In this document: in pieces, positions 11,154 through 59,224 of the stretch | How positions within the stretch are numbered: position 1 is the first letter of the stretch | Layout of the letters: each line of letters opens with the position of its first letter | Assembly (NCBI RefSeq): GCF_013149275.1 | Contig: NZ_JABGNA010000003.1 | Location: 248,001-312,000 of the forward strand | Origin: Mucilaginibacter sp. SG564 | GTDB taxonomy: Bacteria > Bacteroidota > Bacteroidia > Sphingobacteriales > Sphingobacteriaceae | Length of the DNA: 64,000 nucleotides | Reading direction: 5' to 3' | The notes under the pieces: generated by a model | Database searches by the model: none | Told to the model about the DNA's origin: nothing | The model's input: only the letters and a program-made list of their open reading frames with translations | Made by a program: the position numbers and the translations under genes

Positions 11154-12005
11154 CTATTTCCTACCGCTTCCCAGCCACAGCAGGGTATTCAGGATCAGTT
11201 TGTTCTGGATGTCGTTATCAAAGGTTTGCGATTGCTCTTTGTTTGTTCCGCCATCATAATCAATAGCATTATGCCCCATATTAAAGTAAACCATGCGGTA
11301 GTTTTTATTTGTCCATACTACCGGGTAATAGCCGCTGTGCCATATTTCGTATGGTTTTGGCCCTGTACCCAGTGGGAAACTGGTAGAATCGATAGACAGC
11401 AATATCTTGATATCCGGGTTGGTGCGCAGATCCTTTTCCCAGCGGTACCACTCATTTGGCGATGCTTTGAAGGTGACGGGTAAGCCTTTGGTAACCGGGT
11501 GTTTGCTATCCTCCACCCTTAAAATAGCTGAGGTGGGATGCCAGGTATTGCTTTTGTACTGCCCCGATCCCAGGAACTCGTTGTGATACCAATCCCAGTT
11601 TTGAGGATAATCAGACGGCGTAAGCGCGAAGGCCGAAAAGTGAAAACCCATCCAGCCGCCACCCTTTTTCATATATTGCTCAAAAGCAGCCCTTTGTGCA
11701 GGATCATCGGCACGGGTATCTAAAAATATAACCACCTGGTATTTGGCCAGAAACTCCGGGTTCATATTGCTCCAATTGTTGGTGGAGTCATAGGCAAAAT
11801 TGTACTTTTTGGCCATGGCCGGGAACCACCGGTTAGCCTCGTGCATAAAGCTGATGTGCGCCTTATCATTACGCCCTGTATAAAAGGCTATTACCTTAAA
11901 TTTTGGTTTTGCACCCTGTGCATGGGCGCTATATAAACTAAAGCATACAGCACAAATGGCAATAGCCAGCACTGCAATTTTCCGGATACCTGTACGGCTG
12001 ATCAT
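11154..12005 (-). CDS. Secreted ThuA-domain protein
   Basis: A 283-residue protein with an N-terminal signal peptide (hydrophobic stretch ending SAHA). The rest matches the ThuA family, a class I glutamine-amidotransferase-like fold named from trehalose utilisation: FKVIAFYTGRNDKAHISF, VVIFLDTRADDPAQRAAFEQYMK (shortened here to the FLDTRADD stretch), GGWMGFHFSAF, and the C-terminal NMGHNAIDY. Family members occur with 3-keto-sugar metabolism and DUF1080 proteins, and such genes lie just upstream on the same strand. It is separated from them by 490 bp that hold copy A of the duplicated noncoding element. The exact reaction is not known. Confidence 0.8.
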   Translation of the reverse strand: MISRTGIRKIAVLAIAICAVCFSLYSAHAQGAKPKFKVIAFYTGRNDKAHISFMHEANRWFPAMAKKYNFAYDSTNNWSNMNPEFLAKYQVVIFLDTRADDPAQRAAFEQYMKKGGGWMGFHFSAFALTPSDYPQNWDWYHNEFLGSGQYKSNTWHPTSAILRVEDSKHPVTKGLPVTFKASPNEWYRWEKDLRTNPDIKILLSIDSTSFPLGTGPKPYEIWHSGYYPVVWTNKNYRMVYFNMGHNAIDYDGGTNKEQSQTFDNDIQNKLILNTLLWLGSGRK

Positions 12006-12168
12006 AGTTTAAAATGTGGTTTTGGTTAGAGCCATAAAACTAATTTATTTTTATAAACCCTGCACATCAAAACCGGGCATGAGAGGTGATGTAGGGGTGG
12101 TGCGAGAATCAAGAAGTTAGCGTCAAGAGATAAGACATTAACAATTGCCGGGGCTACCCGGCCCAAAA

Positions 12169-12425
12169 ACTTTTTAAACCTTAAATTTTAACATTTTTCT
12201 GCTCAAAAACGGGGTAAAAACAGCCGAAAAATGATCGAAAAACATCGATTTTAACACCTTTTAACAAATTCCAAGGCGGTTTTAGCCTGTTTTTGAAACT
12301 TTAAAAAGTGTTATTTTATTGACTATCAAATAACTTCATAAAAATAAGCCCATTTTCGGGCTATTTTCTCCTTTAACTAAACAGCCCGGTTCTCCTTTTT
12401 AATCAGGAAAACCGGGCTGTTTTTA
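12169..12425 (+). repeat. Duplicated curved-DNA / RNA-like element, copy A
   Basis: A 141-bp core (12169-12309) is bounded by the inverted repeat ACTTTTTAAA / TTTAAAAAGT. Inside are TTTTAACA boxes at 12186, 12249 and 12259, the last two 10 bp apart. Between the first and second boxes lie a T5 tract at 12194 and A5 tracts at 12205, 12216, 12227 and 12238, an exact 11-bp period. The core is followed by a hairpin at about 12341-12366 and a strong ACAGCCCGGTT hairpin ending in a T-run at 12421. Copy B at 46624 has the same order and the same 141-bp core length. The plus strand is given because of the T-run; direction is inference. Confidence 0.7.
12381..12425 (+). terminator. Intrinsic terminator of element A
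   Basis: ACAGCCCGGTT (12381-12391) pairs with AACCGGGCTGT (12410-12420), followed by five T. No plus-strand gene ends nearby, so it most simply terminates an RNA that begins inside the element. On the minus strand it could also end the cytochrome c transcript, though its T-tract there is poor. Confidence 0.65.
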
Positions 12426-12495
12426 TATACAAATATACGCATTTAAGTCCGAAGTTTTAAGCCTTAAAGTGCCGGTTAAGGGGCTAAAATTTAAT

Positions 12496-14466
12496 TTATT
12501 TAGCCATTGATTTGATCCACAGAGCAATCTTACGCGCTTCTTCTTTGGGTACTTGTGGCATCGGTGGCATTGGTGTCGAATAATCAGGCCAGTGCTCGGG
12601 TTTGGGGCTATGGATCAGCTGTATAAGTTCGGTTACACTATATTTCCGTTTCGCCACATCTACGTATGCCGGGCCAACCTGTCTTTTGGTGGTATTATGA
12701 CAAGATAGACAGGTATTTTTCAACAAAAGAGGCTGCACTTCGGCATAGGTAGGAATAGCATTTACCAACGCACCGGGTTTTAACGCCGTAGCCTTTTTAG
12801 TACCAATCCCTTTTTTAACGGCAGCCGAAGCCACTGCTTTGACCGAGTTTACCGTACTTACTTCGGTCATGGAAAGTTTTTGCCCTTCGGGGATATTATT
12901 CAAGGTGTAATAGGCTGTGGGATGCACCAGGTTAAAATAACTTTCCTTATCCCTGATGGCGGCAAGCGTAATGGTATGGATATAATACCTGCGTAAATTA
13001 TTAACGATCAACCTTGCTTTTAAGCCATCCTCAGATACTTTAACCCCTGCTATGGGGCATTTTTCGGTATTCACCGGCGGACTACCATATACGCCGTGAT
13101 ATTTATAAATAAAACTTTCTATGGAGTAGGATGCAATATCTGCCGCCACCTTTTTATCAACCGGTTTGGTAAATTCTATTTCAAAACCATCGGGCATGGC
13201 CCTGATGGCGCGCATTTCAAACGGAACCCGGTTATTCCATACCAAACGCTGCAGGCCCATGGTTGCCTCCCCTGCCGATCCCCAGCCACGGTTGGTTTCG
13301 CCGGTAGCCAATGAGCCGTCGGACAGCCAGGCCAACCTTACGATGCCCGATTGAAAACCGCTTCTGAAAGCCCATGCCGCGCCCTGGTATTCGCCGTTAA
13401 CTTTTTCCAGGAAGATCCGGTCGATCATGCTTTGTCCCTGATCGCAGATCAGTAGCTGCCCAGCAAACGGGCCAAATGCACCTTCGGGGATCTTCACAAT
13501 TTCTGAATTGGAAATACCTAAGATGCCATGAGGTAACCAAACCGCAGGCAGCTGTAATTCCGGAAATTCTTTTTTAGCCTCAAACTCGGTCTTAAACTTT
13601 TCATTAACTATATCCTGTGGTTTTACCGGCTGTCCGTTTTTATCAAACTCTACCCGCGGGTTGTTTTTGGCAAAAAACTGCTCGGGCGTAAGCTTTAGCG
13701 GCGAGTTAGGCAAGCCTGTCCAAACCAGGCTTGAAGGGTGCCCCATGAAAGCCCCTTTTTTGATGGGCATAATACTGCCCGATCCAACCCAATCGCCCTG
13801 GTTATCGGCATACCACAATTCGCCATCAATCATACTGATACCGCAGGGCGAACGAAATCCTGCTGCCCATGGGGTAACCGTACCATCCTCTTTAATATTC
13901 AGGGCCCAACCGCGCCATGGTACAAAACTTTTAGGATGCCACCAATCGGGCGGAAAACCCAGGTTCAGGGTCACAAAAAATGAACCATCCGGCGCAATTT
14001 TAGGCCCGAAACTATATTCATGATAGTTGCCCGATAAAGGCCAGGCATAAATAGTTTCAAAAACATCGGCTTTGCCATCCATATTGGTATCCACCAGTTT
14101 GGTCAATTCACCGCGCTGAACAACGTATAAAGCGCCATCTTTCCAGGCGGCGCCCAAAACCTCATGTAAACCCGAAGCAAACTTGCGAAAGAAAGGATGC
14201 TGCCCGGTAGGATTTTCGACCATAAAAATATCCCCGCGACGGGTGGTTACCGCCAAGGTACCATTTGGCAAGGTACACAAACCGCCAACCTCTAATATGG
14301 TACCTTCGGGCGCAGGCACTTTCATGATCTTAAAAAAATCATCTTCTTTAGGCGATTCGGCCTGGGCAAAGGTATTTCTGATATCGCCTACCAACGCGAT
14401 AATGACCAGCGTACATAAAAACGCGCCTCTTTTTATCATTTGTTTTAAAGTATTATCCATGATCAA
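12496..14466 (-). CDS. Secreted propeller dehydrogenase-like protein with C-terminal cytochrome c
   Basis: A 656-residue protein with an N-terminal signal peptide (RGAFLCTLVIIALVG region, cut near TFAQA). The body resembles the glucose/sorbosone dehydrogenase-like beta-propellers found in large periplasmic cytochromes: GGLCTLPNGTLAVTTRRGDI, GFRSPCGISM, YADNQGDWVGS. The last 75 residues are a class I cytochrome c domain with CLSCH at 586-590 and a methionine-rich MPPMPQVP stretch for the sixth ligand. This suggests periplasmic electron transfer from sugar oxidation. The gene begins 6 bp after the DUF1080 gene, so they are co-transcribed. The start may be the ATG at 14466 or the one at 14460. 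The substrate is unknown. Confidence 0.75.
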   Translation of the reverse strand: MIMDNTLKQMIKRGAFLCTLVIIALVGDIRNTFAQAESPKEDDFFKIMKVPAPEGTILEVGGLCTLPNGTLAVTTRRGDIFMVENPTGQHPFFRKFASGLHEVLGAAWKDGALYVVQRGELTKLVDTNMDGKADVFETIYAWPLSGNYHEYSFGPKIAPDGSFFVTLNLGFPPDWWHPKSFVPWRGWALNIKEDGTVTPWAAGFRSPCGISMIDGELWYADNQGDWVGSGSIMPIKKGAFMGHPSSLVWTGLPNSPLKLTPEQFFAKNNPRVEFDKNGQPVKPQDIVNEKFKTEFEAKKEFPELQLPAVWLPHGILGISNSEIVKIPEGAFGPFAGQLLICDQGQSMIDRIFLEKVNGEYQGAAWAFRSGFQSGIVRLAWLSDGSLATGETNRGWGSAGEATMGLQRLVWNNRVPFEMRAIRAMPDGFEIEFTKPVDKKVAADIASYSIESFIYKYHGVYGSPPVNTEKCPIAGVKVSEDGLKARLIVNNLRRYYIHTITLAAIRDKESYFNLVHPTAYYTLNNIPEGQKLSMTEVSTVNSVKAVASAAVKKGIGTKKATALKPGALVNAIPTYAEVQPLLLKNTCLSCHNTTKRQVGPAYVDVAKRKYSVTELIQLIHSPKPEHWPDYSTPMPPMPQVPKEEARKIALWIKSMAK

Positions 14467-16308: not shown

Positions 16309-16515
16309 CGATTTTTAATATAATATGGTTTATTGGTTATCGGGTATACTATAATACCTGATTTACACTGGCAATGCCAAGATAATTATTTTTAACAATC
16401 GATTGCGAGAAATTAAAAAATAGTTTTTTTTAATTCTCTAAGTTGCTGAATATTGAATAGGCGAAATGATTGATTTCTTTATTATACAGCGGCCGGAGAC
16501 CGGGTAATAACTGTC

Positions 16516-16733
16516 ACTCGGCTGGAGCCCTTAAGTGTTGGGAAGACATAAATTTATACCAAACATTGTCATTTCGATGAGCAGAAGCTGAGGTCTGGGC
16601 ACGAGGGCGAAGAGAAATTTTATACGATTTGCTTATCTCGACGTATAAGATTTCTCCTCGTACCTCGTTCGAAATGACAACTTTTTCTTCTTCCCAACAC
16701 TTGAGGGCCGGAGCCGCGCGACGGCGAGGAATA
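16516..16733. repeat. 215-bp palindromic mobile-like element, copy 1
   Basis: Ends are inverted: CTCGGCTGGAGCCC...AAGTGTTGGGAAG on the left and CTTCCCAACACTTGAGGGC...GGAGCCG on the right. An inner pair GTCATTTCGA / TCGAAATGAC flanks a further GAGAAAT...GATTTCTC pair. A nearly identical copy lies at 49966-50178. No coding capacity; it resembles a MITE-like or large REP-like element. Confidence 0.75.
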
Positions 16734-17789: not shown

Positions 17790-18117
17790 CGGTAATAGTT
17801 AATTATGATTTATTATTTAAGATATTTCACATATTCATAAGATAAGGTTTATAAGAAAATTTGTGTATTGATCAACGGATCATCAATTTTCTGAGGAAAA
17901 TTGTGCACTACATGATCCATGGATGTATAAATTACCAGGCTGTAATTTTTAATATTACCAATAATCGGTATATAATCGGGGTTATAAATGCCAAATTAAT
18001 AAAATAATTATATGTTTTTATATTATTTAAAAAAATATACAATTATTTTATAAGAAAGCACAAACAATAGATATTGTATATGGTGAAGGTTTTGGAAGTC
18101 TATAAAATTAAAGATGT

Positions 18118-45857: not shown

Positions 45858-46598
45858 CTATTTCAGCGCTTTGGCAATAGCCTGCTCGGTAACCGTTGCC
45901 ATAACTTTATAACCTGCAGCATTGGGGTGTACGCCATCTGTAGTAAGCTCCGGCTTTTGCCCGTTGCGCTCATCAACCATGGGTGTAAAATAATCCAGCA
46001 GGGTCAGGTTATTTTCGGTGGCGTAGGCTTTGATGAGCTTGTTGAGTGCGATGATCTTGCCAGCCGGTTCAATGCCTTTACGCCATGGATAATCAAATAC
46101 AGGCAGGTAAGCGCATAGTATCACCTTGATATGGTGCAGTTTAGCCAGCTCGGTCATGGAGCGAATGTTGTTCATGATATACTCATTTGTCAGGTGGCCA
46201 TAGTTGGAGGCGATATCATTACTACCGGCAAGTATGATCACCGCTTTAGGCTTCAGACCGATCACATCCTGCTGAAAGCGCAGTAATAACTGTCCTGAGA
46301 TCTGTCCGCTCACACCCCTGTCCAGATAGGATTTTTCCTTAAAAAACTCAGGCACAGTGGTTTTCCACCGCTCAAATATGGAGCTCCCTAAAAATACCAC
46401 CCTATTTTCGCCGGGTTTGGGGGCGCCTACCTCTTTGTTTTCCCGGGCATAGCGAGACAACGCGGCCCAGTCATCCCGCAAATCCTCTTTGGCAACAGCC
46501 GGCTTATTTTTTCCAGTATCGGGGCTGCCTTGCTGCGCGTAACCGGCAGAGGCGATCAATAATCCGGCGAATAATAATAGGGTAAGTTTTGTATTCAT
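45858..46598 (-). CDS. SGNH/GDSL-family esterase, secreted
   Basis: A 246-residue hydrolase with a signal peptide (FAGLLIASAGYAQ). The GDSL block reads FLGSSIFERW, with GSS in place of GDS and the nucleophile at S73; block II glycine is in RGVSGQ near 98; block III GSND gives N127; and block V DGVHPNAAGY gives D221 and H224. It would remove acyl groups such as acetate from carbohydrate in the periplasm. Copy B of the duplicated element begins only 25 bp upstream of its start codon. Confidence 0.82.
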   Translation of the reverse strand: MNTKLTLLLFAGLLIASAGYAQQGSPDTGKNKPAVAKEDLRDDWAALSRYARENKEVGAPKPGENRVVFLGSSIFERWKTTVPEFFKEKSYLDRGVSGQISGQLLLRFQQDVIGLKPKAVIILAGSNDIASNYGHLTNEYIMNNIRSMTELAKLHHIKVILCAYLPVFDYPWRKGIEPAGKIIALNKLIKAYATENNLTLLDYFTPMVDERNGQKPELTTDGVHPNAAGYKVMATVTEQAIAKALK

Positions 46599-46623
46599 TT
46601 TGGATATATATATCGTAGCAAAA

Positions 46624-46878
46624 ACTTTTTAAAGGTTGAATTTTAACAATTTTCGACTCAAAATCGGGCAAAAACAGGTGAAAAACAGATCAAAAATCAC
46701 TCAAAATCATCGATTTTAACACTTTTTAACAAATTTTTTACACGTTTTGAAAACTTTAAAAAGTATTAATTTCCTATATATCAAATTACGACATACCAAA
46801 TGATCAGTTTTTGGATTGTTTTTTCTGTTAACCAAACAGCCCGGTTCTCTGCTAAAAAAGAGAACCGGGCTGTGGTTT
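46624..46878 (+). repeat. Duplicated curved-DNA / RNA-like element, copy B
   Basis: The core 46624-46764 is 141 bp, the same length as copy A, with the same bounding ACTTTTTAAA / TTTAAAAAGT. TTTTAACA boxes start at 46641, 46714 and 46724. A/T tracts start at 46650, 46660, 46670, 46681, 46692 and 46703, each separated from the next by exactly 6 bp. Copy B has one more tract than copy A, and the distance between the first and second TTTTAACA boxes is correspondingly 10 bp longer (73 against 63). A 15-bp perfect hairpin follows at 46836-46873. Confidence 0.7.
46836..46873 (+). terminator. 15-bp hairpin closing element B
   Basis: ACAGCCCGGTTCTCT at 46836-46850 pairs perfectly with AGAGAACCGGGCTGT at 46859-46873. 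The following bases GGTTTAT are only weakly T-rich. It matches the hairpin of copy A and lies between two divergent genes. Confidence 0.6.
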
Positions 46879-47052
46879 ATACAATATACGAAAAATTGTT
46901 GAATATGCCGGTGGCAAAATTCATTGAACGCAGGTAAGTAGTGTGCGATAAGAGATGCTTCACCTCATCCAATCAATTATTTTTAAATTAACAATTCCTT
47001 TACAGACCGGGGTTTACTTTGTGGCAACTTTATTATAAAAACCCTATTACCC

Positions 47053-48345
47053 ATGAAAAAAAATTTATTAACCCTTTTTACTTTTAGTGCTATAGCCCTT
47101 AGTGCCTGCAAAAAAGATCATAAGGTAAATATAGCTCCACCATACCCGGATATGGCCGAAGCAGCCGATCCTGCTGTTCTGATGACCACTGCCGATGGTG
47201 TAAAAGTATATAACGGTGGCTTTGGCTCGGCCATAGCTCCGGACCCTAAAGACGCTAATGTTTTTTACCTGCTTACCGATCGCGGACCTAATGCTGCGGG
47301 TTCAACAACCAACGCCATCATATTTGGCAAAGCCGATTTTACTCCCGAGATAGGCAAGTTCAGGCTAAAAGATGGTAAACTGGTATTGGAGCAAACCATT
47401 CAGCTTAAAAATGCTGCCGGCCAACCCCTGAACGGTTTACCCAACCCTATCGACCAGGGCGGCACCGGCGAAATCGCTTTTGATCTGAACGGAAACCAGA
47501 TTGCACCAAATGCCGACGGGATCGACTCAGAAGGCATGGTTTTAGCCTCCGACGGTACTTTCTGGATCAGTGATGAATACGGTCCTCACATTGTACATTT
47601 TGATGCCTCAGGTAAAACCATTGAGCGTATAAACCCATTCGGAACAGGTACCGGCGGTCGTAAAATTCCCCTGGTGTTTGCCAAACGTAAACCCAACCGT
47701 GGCATGGAAGGCCTCGCCATTACGCCCGATGGCAAAACATTGGTGGGCATGATGCAATCGCCGATGCTTAACCGCAATAAAACGGCGGTTGCCAATTCAA
47801 CCATCCTGCGTATCCTTACTTTTGATATCGCTTCGGGTGCTACCAAACAGTATGCCTATGTGATGGATAATGTATCCCTTACGGGCGTAAGCGATATAGT
47901 GGCGGTTAATGCCACTACCTTTTTAACCGTTGAGCGCGATGGCTTGTATGGCGGCGCGCCAAGTAATCCGGCTACATTTAAAAAAATATTCAAGATAAGC
48001 CTTACCGGCGCTACCGATATATCAGATGACGCCAATGGCGCTAATGGCAAACTTTACGGGGGCAAAACCGTAGAGGAGCTGAATGACCAGGCCGGTTTGC
48101 AGGGTGCAGGCATTACCCCGGTATCTAAAACCCTGGTGCTGGATCTGCTGAAAGATCTGCCAACCGTTTACCCGCATGATAAGGCCGAAGGTTTGGCCCT
48201 GCTACCGGGCAATATCCTGGCCATCTCCAACGATGACGACTTTGGTGTACTGGATAATGGCAAGGGCGGTTTCGCTGCTAAAATACTGCCCGCTACCAAC
48301 ACGGTTGATCATAACCGCATCTATTTTGTAAAGATAAAGCTATAA
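47053..48345 (+). CDS. Phytase-like esterase lipoprotein
   Basis: A 430-residue lipoprotein (lipobox LSAC, Cys19). The mature part matches the esterase-like activity of phytase domain (PF13449-type beta-propeller): LTDRGPNAAGSTTNAIIFG, DSEGMVLASDGTFWISDEYGP (cited by WISDEYGP), RGMEGLAITPDGKTLVGMMQS (cited by RGMEGLAITPDG), and DDDFGVLDNGKGG. It may release phosphate from organic phosphoesters at the cell surface; activity in this family is established for few members. A strong terminator follows at 48385-48417. Confidence 0.8.
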   Translation: MKKNLLTLFTFSAIALSACKKDHKVNIAPPYPDMAEAADPAVLMTTADGVKVYNGGFGSAIAPDPKDANVFYLLTDRGPNAAGSTTNAIIFGKADFTPEIGKFRLKDGKLVLEQTIQLKNAAGQPLNGLPNPIDQGGTGEIAFDLNGNQIAPNADGIDSEGMVLASDGTFWISDEYGPHIVHFDASGKTIERINPFGTGTGGRKIPLVFAKRKPNRGMEGLAITPDGKTLVGMMQSPMLNRNKTAVANSTILRILTFDIASGATKQYAYVMDNVSLTGVSDIVAVNATTFLTVERDGLYGGAPSNPATFKKIFKISLTGATDISDDANGANGKLYGGKTVEELNDQAGLQGAGITPVSKTLVLDLLKDLPTVYPHDKAEGLALLPGNILAISNDDDFGVLDNGKGGFAAKILPATNTVDHNRIYFVKIKL

Positions 48346-49649: not shown

Positions 49650-49965
49650 AGTGGTGGCCTGTCACCCTGAGCTTGTCGAAGGGTCGCGCGCAGAGGCCTG
49701 CACACCATGCTTCGACGGGTTCAGCATGACAGCCATTTTTGAAAATCACGAAAGTGGTGGCCTGTCACCCTGAGCTTGTCGAAGGGTCCGCTGCAGTCGC
49801 TCGGCTCCAGCCGAGTGACCGTTATTACCCGGCCTCCGGCCGTCGCAAAAGGCAAGGTTATTTATATTGGTTTCCCCCCTTCGCTGGCGCACGCGTGCGA
49901 CAGCAGAGGGCCGTCGCAAAGGGCAAGTATATTGGTTTCGCAGGCCAGAGGCCTGTAAATAATTG
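49650..49965. repeat. Clustered dispersed hairpin repeats
   Basis: At least two copies of GTCACCCTGAGCTTGTCGAAGGGTC (cited by its CTGAGCTTGTCGAAGGG core) plus repeated CGCTCGGCTCCGGCCGAGTG palindromes. The density suggests nested insertion. Confidence 0.6.
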
Positions 49966-50178
49966 TCGCTCGGCTGGAGCCCACAGGTGTTGGGAAGACA
50001 TAAATTTATACCAAACGTTCTCATTTCGATGAGCAGAAGCTGAGGCCTGGGCAGGGGGCGAAGAGAAATCTTGTACGATTTGCTTATCTCGACGTATAAG
50101 ATTTCTCCTCGTACCTCGTCGAAATGACAACTTTTTCTTCTTCCCAACACTTGAGGGCTGGAGCCGAGCGACTGCATG
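49966..50178. repeat. 215-bp palindromic mobile-like element, copy 2
   Basis: Matches copy 1 at 16516-16733 nearly base for base, including the inner GACGTATAAGATTTCTCCTC stretch. The ends are GCTCGGCTGGAGCCC on the left and GGGCTGGAGCCGAGC on the right. Confidence 0.75.
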
Positions 50179-53070: not shown

Positions 53071-53091
53071 GAAGCAATACGATAAGGTTTT

Positions 53092-53952
53092 TTAGTACAA
53101 ATAGTTCAACGCTATTTTATCATTCGCGTTGAAGGTACGGTCAGACCCATTTGAACAGGCCAGCATCCATGAAGCCGCATCAGCAGCAGAAGGTGTACCC
53201 GGAATAAGAATAGCTCCAGGATAGTTTTGAGGATCGCTGCTGCTATAAGTATTACCTTCATTTACCGCTGTACCACCGCAGCTGAAAGAGCGGTTAAAGT
53301 AATCGGTATGGCGCATACCAATACAATGACCCAACTCATGCTGGATAACAGAAGTAAGGTAACCCAAATTTGGATTACTTCCGTATGCCTGTGGATTGGT
53401 GTTCATACCGATAGCGTTGTAAGGATTACCCGCCGCGGTTGGGAAACCAGAATAGCCTAAAGTGATGTAACCACCGCTTGGCCCCTGGTTAAAGCCAGTA
53501 ACCACGATGTTACCACCGCTGCTAACCACCTGAAACTGCAGCGAAAGATTTAACGCGTTATAACGAGCTATAGCATTAGCTGTAGCTGTAGCGTAAACAG
53601 TTGGCAGGTTTGAAACCGAAACAGTGATAGTTCTTGGTAAATTTTTCACCAGGTTGTGTGTCTGATACTGTTCTGTTTCGGCAATTCTAACAATAGGGCC
53701 TGCAACAGCGGCTTCTTTTAAATTCTCCGGAGTAAGTAAAATATCATCTTCTACCAGGTAATTGTCACCTATTTTGCGCACGTTGTCGGTACTGAAACCT
53801 AAAGCCGCGATTTGTTTTGAAGCATCGGCCGAGATTTGCGGAGTTTGATTGGCTTTTTTGTCGACGCTTTGATTGTTTTTAGTACATGCAGTTAGTAATG
53901 AAGATGCACATATAATGCATAGCCCCATTTTTAGTAAGAGTTGTTTTTTCAT
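53092..53952 (-). CDS. M57-type (HEIGH) metalloprotease lipoprotein, paralogue 1
   Basis: A 286-residue lipoprotein (lipobox LLTAC, Cys23). The metzincin-like domain ends in HELGHCIGMRHTDY at 205-218, matching the HExGHxxGxxHTD of M57 peptidases, with zinc histidines at 205, 209 and 215. The C-terminus KIALNYLY and the ACSNGSDRTFNANDKIALNY segment are shared with the two neighbours. It is the last of three tandem same-strand copies, each carrying about 30 bp of the same leader (AGTACCGACAAAATG). It would act on proteins at the cell surface. Confidence 0.85.
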   Translation of the reverse strand: MKKQLLLKMGLCIICASSLLTACTKNNQSVDKKANQTPQISADASKQIAALGFSTDNVRKIGDNYLVEDDILLTPENLKEAAVAGPIVRIAETEQYQTHNLVKNLPRTITVSVSNLPTVYATATANAIARYNALNLSLQFQVVSSGGNIVVTGFNQGPSGGYITLGYSGFPTAAGNPYNAIGMNTNPQAYGSNPNLGYLTSVIQHELGHCIGMRHTDYFNRSFSCGGTAVNEGNTYSSSDPQNYPGAILIPGTPSAADAASWMLACSNGSDRTFNANDKIALNYLY

Positions 53953-54077
53953 TTTGTCGGTACTCTAATTTTGTTAGTTAGTTAATACTTTTAAAATAAT
54001 ATCCGGGACAACTAAGGCCTCCCTTTTATTATTTAATAATAATTGCCTGCTTGATTGATCAATAAGCAGCAATATTT

Positions 54078-54920
54078 TTAGTACAGGTAGTTCAATGCTA
54101 TCTTATCATTCGCGTTGAAGGTGCGGTCAGACCCATTTGAACAGGCCAGCATCCATGAACCGGCATCAAATGTTTTGGTTGGTGTACCCGGAATGTGAAC
54201 AGCACCAATGCCTGCTGTACCTTCATTACCACCGCCGCCTGTACCGCAGCTCAGGTTACGGTTAAAATAATCGGTATGGCGCATACCTATACAGTGCCCC
54301 ATTTCATGCTGGATAACAGAAGTAAGGTACCCCAGATCCGGATTAGTGCCATAAGCGGCAGGGTTAGTGTTCATCTTGATCTGGTTGTAAGGGTTTCCTG
54401 ATGAAGTTGGGAAGCCAGAAGAACCCAAGGTGATGAAACCACCGCTTGGGCCTTCGTTGAAACCAATGATCTGAATAGCACCACCGCTGCTTACCACCTG
54501 AAATTTAAGGGTAAGATTTAACGCGTTGTAACGTGACACGGCATTAGCTGTAGCCGTAGCATAAACAGTTGGCAGGTTTGAAACTGAAACGGTAACTGTT
54601 CTTGGCAAATTTTTAACCAGGTTAGTTGTCCGGTATTGCTCTACTTCGGCAATTCTAAGTGTTGGACTGGTGCTGGTTTCAGATAAATTAGCCGGGGTTA
54701 GCAGGATATCACCTTCTACCAGGTAATTATCCCCTACCTTACGCATGTTATCGGTGCTGAAACCCAAAGCAGTGATCTTGCTGCTTACATCTGCAGAGAT
54801 CTGTGTAGCCGGATCATCCTTTTTTTCGGCGCCAGGATTGTTGTTTTTGGTACATGCGATTAGTAATGAAGATGCACAAGCTATGCACACCCCAATTTTT
54901 AGCAAGAGTTGTTTTTTCAT
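54078..54920 (-). CDS. M57-type metalloprotease lipoprotein, paralogue 2
   Basis: A 280-residue paralogue. The lipobox is LLIAC with Cys23, and the zinc motif is HEMGHCIGMRHTDY. The segment between the zinc motif and the C-terminal ACSNGSD is shorter than in its neighbours: the SSDPQ-type insert present in paralogues 1 and 3 is missing (after NEGTAG). The identical C-terminal stretch and leader show recent duplication. It lies 125 bp from paralogue 1. Confidence 0.85.
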   Translation of the reverse strand: MKKQLLLKIGVCIACASSLLIACTKNNNPGAEKKDDPATQISADVSSKITALGFSTDNMRKVGDNYLVEGDILLTPANLSETSTSPTLRIAEVEQYRTTNLVKNLPRTVTVSVSNLPTVYATATANAVSRYNALNLTLKFQVVSSGGAIQIIGFNEGPSGGFITLGSSGFPTSSGNPYNQIKMNTNPAAYGTNPDLGYLTSVIQHEMGHCIGMRHTDYFNRNLSCGTGGGGNEGTAGIGAVHIPGTPTKTFDAGSWMLACSNGSDRTFNANDKIALNYLY

Positions 54921-54986
54921 TTTGTCGGTACTTTAATTTTGTTAATAATTATCCGATTGATCAATAAAAAGTAATACTGTATAGTT

Positions 54987-55856
54987 TTAGTACAGATAGT
55001 TCAATGCTATTTTATCATTCGCGTTAAACGTGCGGTCGGTGCCGCTTGAGCAGGCCAGCATCCATGAACCGGCATCAAATGTTTTGGTTGGGGTACCAGG
55101 GATGTGAACAGCGCCTGGATAATCCTGCGGATCGCTGCTGCTATAAGTGCTGCCTTCATTGCCACCACCATTTACGCCGCAGCTTAGGTTACGGTTAAAA
55201 TAATCAGTATGGCGCATACCTATGCAATGGCCCATTTCATGCTGGATAACAGAGGTTAGGTATCCTACATCAGGATTGCTTCCGTAGGCATCAACATTGG
55301 TGTTCATACCAATAGCGTTAAAAGCATCACCAGAGGCGGTTGGGAAACCCGAATAACCTAAAGTAATAAAACCATCAGAATCAACACCTTCGTCAAAACC
55401 GGTAATCACCATATCACCGCCACTGCTTACCACCTGAAATTTAAGTGTCAGGTTTAACGCGTTGTAGCGTGCTACCGCGTTGGTTGTAGCTGTAGCGTAA
55501 ACCGTCGGTAAATTGGAAACGGATACGGTAATGGTTCTTGGTAAATTTTTAACCAGGTTGTGTGTCTGGTACTGCTCTGTTTCGGCTACTCTAAGAACAG
55601 GGCTCGCAGGGTTAGCCTCATTTAAATTGGCCGGGGTTAACATGATATCGCCCTCTACAATGTAATTGTTACCCATTTTACGAACATTATCCGCGCTAAA
55701 ACCCAGATTTTTGATCTTTTGGGCTACATCAGCAGAAATGGCGGTTTTGGGAGAAGCCGCCTTATCGGCGCCTTGGTTGTTTTTAGTACAAGCAGTTAGT
55801 AACGAAGATGCACAAGCGATGCACACCCCCATCTTAAACAAGAGTTGTTTTTTCAT
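54987..55856 (-). CDS. M57-type metalloprotease lipoprotein, paralogue 3
   Basis: A 289-residue paralogue, first in transcription order. Lipobox LLTAC, Cys23; zinc motif HEMGHCIGMRHTDY; SSDPQDYPGAVHIPG insert retained. A TTGATCAATAA sequence follows each of the three stops, showing that the duplicated unit includes flanking DNA. The 750-bp region upstream may carry its promoter; no exact -7 element is visible. Confidence 0.85.
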   Translation of the reverse strand: MKKQLLFKMGVCIACASSLLTACTKNNQGADKAASPKTAISADVAQKIKNLGFSADNVRKMGNNYIVEGDIMLTPANLNEANPASPVLRVAETEQYQTHNLVKNLPRTITVSVSNLPTVYATATTNAVARYNALNLTLKFQVVSSGGDMVITGFDEGVDSDGFITLGYSGFPTASGDAFNAIGMNTNVDAYGSNPDVGYLTSVIQHEMGHCIGMRHTDYFNRNLSCGVNGGGNEGSTYSSSDPQDYPGAVHIPGTPTKTFDAGSWMLACSSGTDRTFNANDKIALNYLY

Positions 55857-56211
55857 TTGTCGGTACTCTAATTTTGTTAATAGTTAAAAAATCACAAACA
55901 ATCATGATAATAGCCGGCCAGCTTGTTGTTTATGATTATAAATATATTAAAATACAACGACATTTATTTTTCATTTGATAAATATAAAGACCATTATTGT
56001 CTTTAAAATTAAAAAATAGTAAAAACTATACCCCGTATAATAACTAGTAAAAATTAGCGTTATAGTTGATTTAAATTATCCCAAGACACTTTTCGGGGAA
56101 AATAGAGCCCGGCCCACAATAGGTGTAAACACCTACCGCGTAACCGGGTAAAATACGGGTAAAATAAAAATTGACAAGCGCCGAAATTTACCCGACTTTA
56201 TCCATTTTAAG

Positions 56212-56282
56212 TTTTCCTACAAGGGCTCGAACCTCAATCTTCAGAGCCAGAATCTGACGTGTTACCATTACACCATAGGAAA
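56212..56282 (-). tRNA. tRNA-Gln (CTG)
   Basis: A 71-nt cloverleaf on the minus strand. Acceptor TTTCCTA pairs with TAGGAAA (discriminator A), the D arm is GTG-TAATGGTAA-CAC, the anticodon arm is TCAGA-TTCTGGC-TCTGA with anticodon CTG, and the T arm has GG-TTCGAGC-CC. The U1-A72 pair is the usual glutamine identity feature. No CCA is encoded. Confidence 0.9.
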
Positions 56283-59104: not shown

Positions 59105-59155
59105 AACAAAACAAAAAAGATCTTAGCAAATTGCTAAGATCTTTTTTGTTTTGTT
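59105..59155 (-). terminator. 25-bp perfect hairpin at the 3' end of tRNA-Gln
   Basis: 59105-59129 and 59131-59155 are exact reverse complements around one base; the centre is TTAGCAA-A-TTGCTAA and the outer part is AACAAAACAAAAAAGATC. It overlaps the last base of the tRNA gene and works as a bidirectional terminator, with long A and T tracts on either strand. Confidence 0.75.
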
Positions 59156-59224
59156 TTCCCGCATGGGCTCGAACCACGATCGTCTGAACCAGAATCAGAA
59201 GTGCTACCATTACACCACAGGAAA
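59154..59224 (-). tRNA. tRNA-Gln (CTG), second copy
   Basis: A 71-nt cloverleaf on the minus strand. Acceptor TTTCCTG pairs with CGGGAAA (one G-U), the D arm is GTG-TAATGGTAG-CAC, the anticodon arm is TCTGA-TTCTGGT-TCAGA with anticodon CTG, and the T arm is CGTGG-TTCGAGC-CCATG. No CCA is encoded. It differs from the first copy at several stem positions but has the same anticodon. Confidence 0.9.

Follow-up and report, generated by a model that had tools for sequence, protein, structure and literature searches.

We analysed a window of 64,000 nucleotides from Mucilaginibacter sp. SG564, in which two copies of the same intergenic unit were found. Copy A (12166..12441, plus strand; matched to profile positions 2-272 with 179 bits) lies between a minus-strand ThuA-like gene (11154..12005; PF06283, E 4e-34), the start codon of which is 163 bp from the core of the unit, and a second minus-strand gene (12496..14466) that has no Pfam match but contains a CLSCH haem-type motif, and whose 3' end faces the hairpin of the unit. 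Copy B (46621..46894, plus strand; profile hit G000:C3:294620-294896, 161.5 bits) lies between a minus-strand GDSL lipase gene (45861..46598; PF13472, E 5e-24) and a plus-strand gene for a phytase-like esterase (47053..48342; PF13449, E 2e-56). From left to right, copy A is made up of a core with the ends ACTTTTTAAA and TTTAAAAAGT (12169..12309, 141 bp, plus strand), in which A/T tracts are phased at ~10.7 bp and for which a bend of 155 degrees is modelled; a spacer with a partly conserved ATTGAnnATCAAATAA (12310..12380, 70-71 bp, plus strand), the length of which is fixed in the family; a hairpin ACAGCCCGGTTCTC/GAAAACCGGGCTGT (12381..12420), a possible bidirectional terminator with compensatory changes in its stem; and a promoter-like -7 box TATATTTG (12430..12437) on the minus strand, which reads left into the hairpin and has an imperfect -33 position. 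The core of copy B (46624..46764, plus strand) has a modelled bend of 160 degrees, and its hairpin was located at 46836..46873. Apparent 10-bp indels between the two copies proved to be an alignment artefact, as both cores are 141 bp long.

The tract starts that the first-pass annotation of this DNA had listed for copy A (12194, 12205, 12216, 12227 and 12238), the TTTTAACA boxes at 12249 and 12259, and the extent and ends of the 141-bp core were all exact on recheck, and the hairpin with its T-run is present. The five A-tracts had been described as spaced at 11 bp; their positions hold, but the phasing spans the whole core, with 13 A/T-tract slots running from the left end to TTTAAAAAGT at a best period of 10.7-10.8 bp. 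It had also been remarked that no plus-strand gene ends at the hairpin, which is correct; on the minus strand, however, a gene ends 76 bp to the right (12496), and the hairpin of copy A may serve this gene.

Copy number and range of the repeat family

Copy A is a member of a dispersed intergenic repeat family with a unit of ~277 bp and ~90-110 copies per genome in four related Mucilaginibacter. Using a 26-bp left-end pattern with at most 3 mismatches, we counted 91 matches in the genome that contains the window (G000, 6.83 Mb), 103 in G086 (inferred to be Mucilaginibacter lappiensis), 111 in G156 (inferred to be Mucilaginibacter sp. OK268) and 90 in G082, against 0 for the reversed control pattern in G000 and 0-1 across the four copy-rich genomes; five other genomes gave 0-4 matches each. 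Among the matches listed when copy A was compared with its own genome by BLAST, there are 40, with identities of 77-100%. These copy numbers exclude a chance local similarity as the origin of the resemblance. The element had been called duplicated, and it is indeed a real repeat, but with ~91 copies in the window genome it is not a two-copy duplication. We then used a sequence profile (R1, 277 model positions) built from 30 diverse copies, which has matches with E < 1e-15 in 10 of 150 genomes of the genus; copy counts derive from both kinds of search, by pattern and by profile, and from ~2.7 Mb of retrieved sequence. Further copies, for which the first-pass annotation had proposed a search in related genomes, are thus present in G082, G086 and G156 and, in diverged form and in smaller numbers per genome, in six genomes beyond the four close species. 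The profile matches outside the close four include 26 in G061, 16 in G098, 8 in G116 and 3 in G072, a few of which are opposite-strand echoes of one element.

Weak profile matches (20-30 bits) in other members of the genus could reflect A-rich DNA matched by chance, and the family is absent from most species of the genus; therefore, whatever the element does is not essential to the genus. No strong profile match was obtained outside the genus among 151 sampled genomes of the order, and plasmids and phages gave no match to the family. Searching Rfam 15, we obtained no gathering-score match to the element: the matches in the window were tRNAs only, and over copy A all hits were below threshold. 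A description of the element was not found in the open-access literature, a scope that excludes most subscription journals. No open reading frame is shared within the unit, which rules out a coding role.

The left edge of the unit, at (A)AAACTTTTTAAA, is sharp, with conservation dropping from ~1.8 to 0.1 bits within two positions, whereas the right edge is gradual. The core is 141 bp long in 103 of 160 copies, 139-142 bp in 155 and 131-132 bp in the other 5, and the spacer between core and hairpin measures 71 bp in 99 and 70 bp in 22 of the 132 copies scored. The base of the hairpin is of the CAGCCCGG type, with compensatory changes up the stem, and to its right stands ATAAATATACGAAAATTT, which is TATATTT(A/G) on the minus strand. 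The letters best kept across species are the inverted core ends CTTTTTAAAG/CTTTAAAAAG and the ATTTTAACA box.

Comparison of sites between genomes shows both filled and empty states. At the site of copy B, the same lipase and phytase-like genes are present in G061 and G098 but are separated by a short gap that contains no element, a clean empty site bordered by the lipase gene; the site is filled in G156, and in G082 and G086 it has been rearranged so that only a decayed remnant is left. These remnants (L225 and L227, from G082 and G086), upstream of the lipase gene, retain ~60 bp of the left end, the right side having been replaced by the rearrangement, and offer a natural comparison with intact copies, which are constrained. 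Another site is filled in G086 and G156 but empty in G000, which has a short native terminator in the position of the hairpin. Gains and losses of the element have therefore both occurred; the mechanism leaves no duplicated target behind, as no target-site duplication signal was detected in the family. The clean empty site of copy B and the high copy number in one clade would suit a non-autonomous transposon (MITE) family with no host function; however, the outer ends of the unit, AAAACTTTTTAAA and ATACnAAAATTT, are not inverted repeats of each other, a target-site duplication signal is absent, and the tracts are constrained at orthologous sites long after insertion, so that we regard this explanation as very improbable.

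The window also contains other repeated sequences. A second dispersed intergenic repeat lies at 16491-16725 and 49943-50175 (87-97% identical in pieces that cover ~235 bp). Related 40-60-bp TGTCACCCTGAGC...TCGAAGGG repeats occur at 18115, 49644, 49747 and 60121, together with inverted pieces; sequences like this repeat flank some of the bent elements at other loci. Three tandem paralogous segments, ~940-970 bp apart and 60-89% identical, occupy 53086-55880, and two tRNA-Gln genes, both with a CTG anticodon (56211-56282 and 59153-59224), are 2.9 kb apart and 84% identical.

Inheritance, selection and modelled curvature of the core

Among the 160 distinct copies sampled, 115 fall in 41 ortholog groups with flanking genes common between species, indicating that the copies are mostly old and vertically inherited; two groups extend to the more distant G061, G098 or G149. 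One group, number 13 (L154, L106, L085, L124, L172, L064 and L073), contains several copies per genome with common flanks. To compare orthologs between G082, G086 and G156, we chose conserved columns from the G000 copies; the divergence is 3.6-4.4% in these columns and 32-34% in variable ones. Since many copies had been fetched by their left end, we repeated the comparison without the first 40 columns, whereupon tract columns differ by 5.3-8.3% and variable columns by 33-35%. In the same ortholog pairs, the core is 86-89% identical compared with 53-80% for flanking intergenic DNA. Spacer columns are ~61-64% identical between orthologous copies and 43% identical between non-orthologous ones, a difference that speaks against homogenisation among the copies. 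The comparisons that involve G000 show more divergence and have few equal-length pairs behind them. The hairpin is missing or no longer recognisable in ~10 of the 43 copies from the window genome, and the core of such copies is still constrained, with a deviation of 9.3% at conserved columns compared with 7.6% in cores that have a hairpin. Accordingly, the main work of the element seems to fall to the core. The G000 cores without the usual hairpin are L107, L116, L119, L120, L122, L123, L129, L130 and L135, several of which are orthologous to full elements in other species.

We modelled the curvature of the core as a vector sum with 18 degrees per tract. The mean bend is 152 degrees, compared with 29 degrees for genome windows (99.9th percentile, 107 degrees), 40 degrees for A+T-rich windows and 53 degrees for tract-preserving shuffles, and 99% of copies exceed the genome's 99.9th percentile. 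A wedge model agrees, giving an end-to-contour ratio of 0.61 for cores vs 0.91. The modelling supports a core that is strongly curved in one plane. In the diverged species, the letters of the core have largely changed and the helical slots stay: for 15 of 16 scored diverged cores (the exception is L181), phasing as good as that observed arises in no more than 2.2% of tract-preserving shuffles. Within fixed slots, A-runs and T-runs replace each other; for example, slot 82.5 holds T in 92 copies and A in 10. A parallel lineage-specific T5-to-T4 change was looked for in the window genome, and the change was not uniform.

These observations suggest that what selection preserves is not the exact sequence but the tract spacing by which DNA is bent. 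An RNA structure or a cruciform in the core was ruled out, as there is no long-range covariation between distant core columns, dyad pairs of the core show no excess covariation, and in the consensus fold the core is unpaired and only the hairpin folds. Since covariation supports the hairpin and not a folded core, we think it best to regard the core as an element of DNA shape. We tentatively propose, as plausible if short of probable, an element class selected for a planar curve of ~140 bp, in which slots are kept while letters and the strand of A-runs drift, and which would provide ~100 wrapping or loop sites per genome at transcription-unit boundaries.

Placement among genes and the right-end box

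With the element read on the plus strand, the left and right neighbours at 81 independent loci are oriented -- at 43, +- at 19, -+ at 10 and ++ at 9. Divergent pairs account for 10 of the 81 loci (12%) as against 170 of 544 long gaps in the same genomes (31%), a depletion that is approximate because the baseline uses simple ORF calls and includes gaps lengthened by the element itself; a gene 3' end lies on at least one side at 71 of the 81 loci, compared with 374 of the 544 long gaps. Tandem loci are oriented 43 to 9. In the family as a whole, copies are located at gene boundaries, and the hairpin usually faces the stop codon of an upstream gene. The left gene runs leftward at 53 loci and toward the element at 28, and at 26 of these 28 it ends no more than ~33 bp from the core; of the genes on the right that run toward the element, half have their stop codon 16-70 bp past the hairpin. 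No protein family is enriched among 96 neighbour proteins, whose functions are unrelated, which rules out a regulon of related genes, and even spacing of the elements along the chromosome was not seen. This placement fits a terminator combined with a supercoil-handling site at transcription-unit ends and is unfit for a promoter of one neighbour.

The stop-codon distances on both sides are also what a transcription-boundary module would give, in which the hairpin would terminate transcription both ways and the curve would aid termination or insulate the neighbours. The maintenance of the hairpin by compensatory change points the same way, as does a report that in E. coli curved DNA is present downstream of coding regions (PMC516772). 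We nevertheless think such a module unlikely, given the window-genome copies in which the core remains constrained without a recognisable hairpin.

At the right end, a TAnnTTTN box is present at 77 of the 81 loci, compared with 18% in shuffles, and TTG stands exactly 20 bp from the box in 24 of the 77, with few at other distances, so that the family pattern is TTG-N20-TATATTT(A/G). This resembles the Bacteroidetes sigma-A promoter consensus TTTG/TAHHTTTG with a separation of ~19-21 bp (PMC6847099). However, the final G of an exact TAnnTTTG occurs at only 31 of the 81 loci, and both window copies have imperfect versions; therefore, we term the right end only promoter-like. A small RNA gene had also been suggested for copy A; the core, which lacks long-range covariation and does not fold, lends this no support, but a short leftward transcript from this box is possible, judging from the motif. 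The box might accordingly drive a small RNA or a leader, the core being either a transcribed curve or an upstream curve for the promoter of the left gene, and the 53 left genes that run leftward would be in keeping with this. Yet 28 left genes run toward the element, presenting an end and not a start, the distance to the left-hand start codon is broad (25-423 bp), the exact box is in the minority, and the core has no structure or covariation, all of which make a leftward promoter quite unlikely as the element's function. The same two findings on left-hand genes, together with the unrelated functions of the adjoining genes, tell against the regulatory module upstream of thuA that had been suggested for copy A, whereas the curved DNA suggested with it is strongly supported by the modelling and by selection on tract phase.

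A proposed gene-boundary element acting through DNA shape

We favour, with a probability of about one half, a BIME-like dispersed gene-boundary element that acts through DNA shape, in which a terminator is joined to a site where gyrase or a nucleoid protein would wrap the DNA. The hairpin would end transcription of the neighbouring gene; the curved core would be wrapped or held by a protein, with DNA gyrase as the first candidate and an HU-type nucleoid protein as the second; and the wrapped core would take up the supercoils that transcription generates, or would keep a bend or loop in place between transcription units, as proposed by analogy with BIMEs in E. coli. The leftward promoter-like box is left unexplained by this model. 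BIMEs sit at gene 3' ends, and the present family is, like BIME and REP sequences, many-copied, extragenic and near gene 3' ends. The BIME-2 and REP elements of enterobacteria show further likenesses, namely at least ~100 intergenic copies per genome, a hairpin-forming part and a proposed role in topology (PMC6379681; PMC2817692). In contrast to BIME and REP sequences, the family has no REP palindrome mosaics or 20-40-bp alternating palindromes but one terminator-like hairpin per unit in a fixed orientation to the core, and its conserved feature is the 141-bp phased-tract core.

The nearest published counterpart is the gyrase motif of E. coli, which is symmetric, spans ~130 bp and has arms with a period of 10.75 bp, interpreted as DNA wrapped around the GyrA C-terminal domain; BIME-2 repeats are among the sites of gyrase (PMC6379681). 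Our elements agree with this picture in length, period and placement. The Mu strong gyrase site and the E. coli motif likewise have A+T-rich segments phased at ~10.7 bp over ~130-140 bp (PMC6379681), but unlike the Mu site the elements form a repeated family with true A/T tracts through the centre, and gyrase binding is here putative. Against gyrase, the tracts pass uninterrupted through the core centre, where the gyrase motif has a distinct middle of 36 bp. A test for 10.75-bp periodicity in G+C neither confirms nor denies gyrase, since the Mu strong gyrase site itself, used as a control, reached only the 85th percentile and was not singled out.

A serious rival to gyrase is an unknown or HU-type nucleoid protein that would fix the bend or close a small loop, with the inverted CTTTTTAAAG/CTTTAAAAAG ends as anchors. 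That these ends and the ATTTTAACA box are the best-kept letters across species would agree with such anchoring, and A-tract clusters of ~100 bp have been proposed at loop apexes in E. coli (PMC4761138); such a protein is a candidate only, inseparable from gyrase by sequence, and we hold a version without gyrase to be doubtful.

The boundary element with a wrapped core that we prefer can further be set beside several known kinds of DNA. It shares with intrinsically curved DNA in general A/T tracts in helix phase over several turns, and with the nucleoid A-tract clusters of Tolstorukov, Zhurkin and others phased A-tracts over ~100 bp (PMC4761138); A-tract periodicity in E. coli is concentrated in intergenic DNA (PMC516772). 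However, those clusters are statistical and have no shared sequence, whereas the present elements are a homologous dispersed family with site-by-site constraint. Like MITEs and ERIC-like repeats, they are short, noncoding, high in copy number and clade-limited, but they differ in that outer inverted repeats and target duplication were not found and in being constrained after insertion. The bent repeat is a real, constrained, multi-copy element of an ordinary kind, a dispersed intergenic repeat, but with an unusual conserved feature, the helical slots. The function of phased A-tracts in bacteria has so far been argued mainly from genome-wide statistics. With ~100 homologous sites per genome, sibling species, empty sites, and hairpin-less or decayed copies, this family makes A-tract function directly testable.
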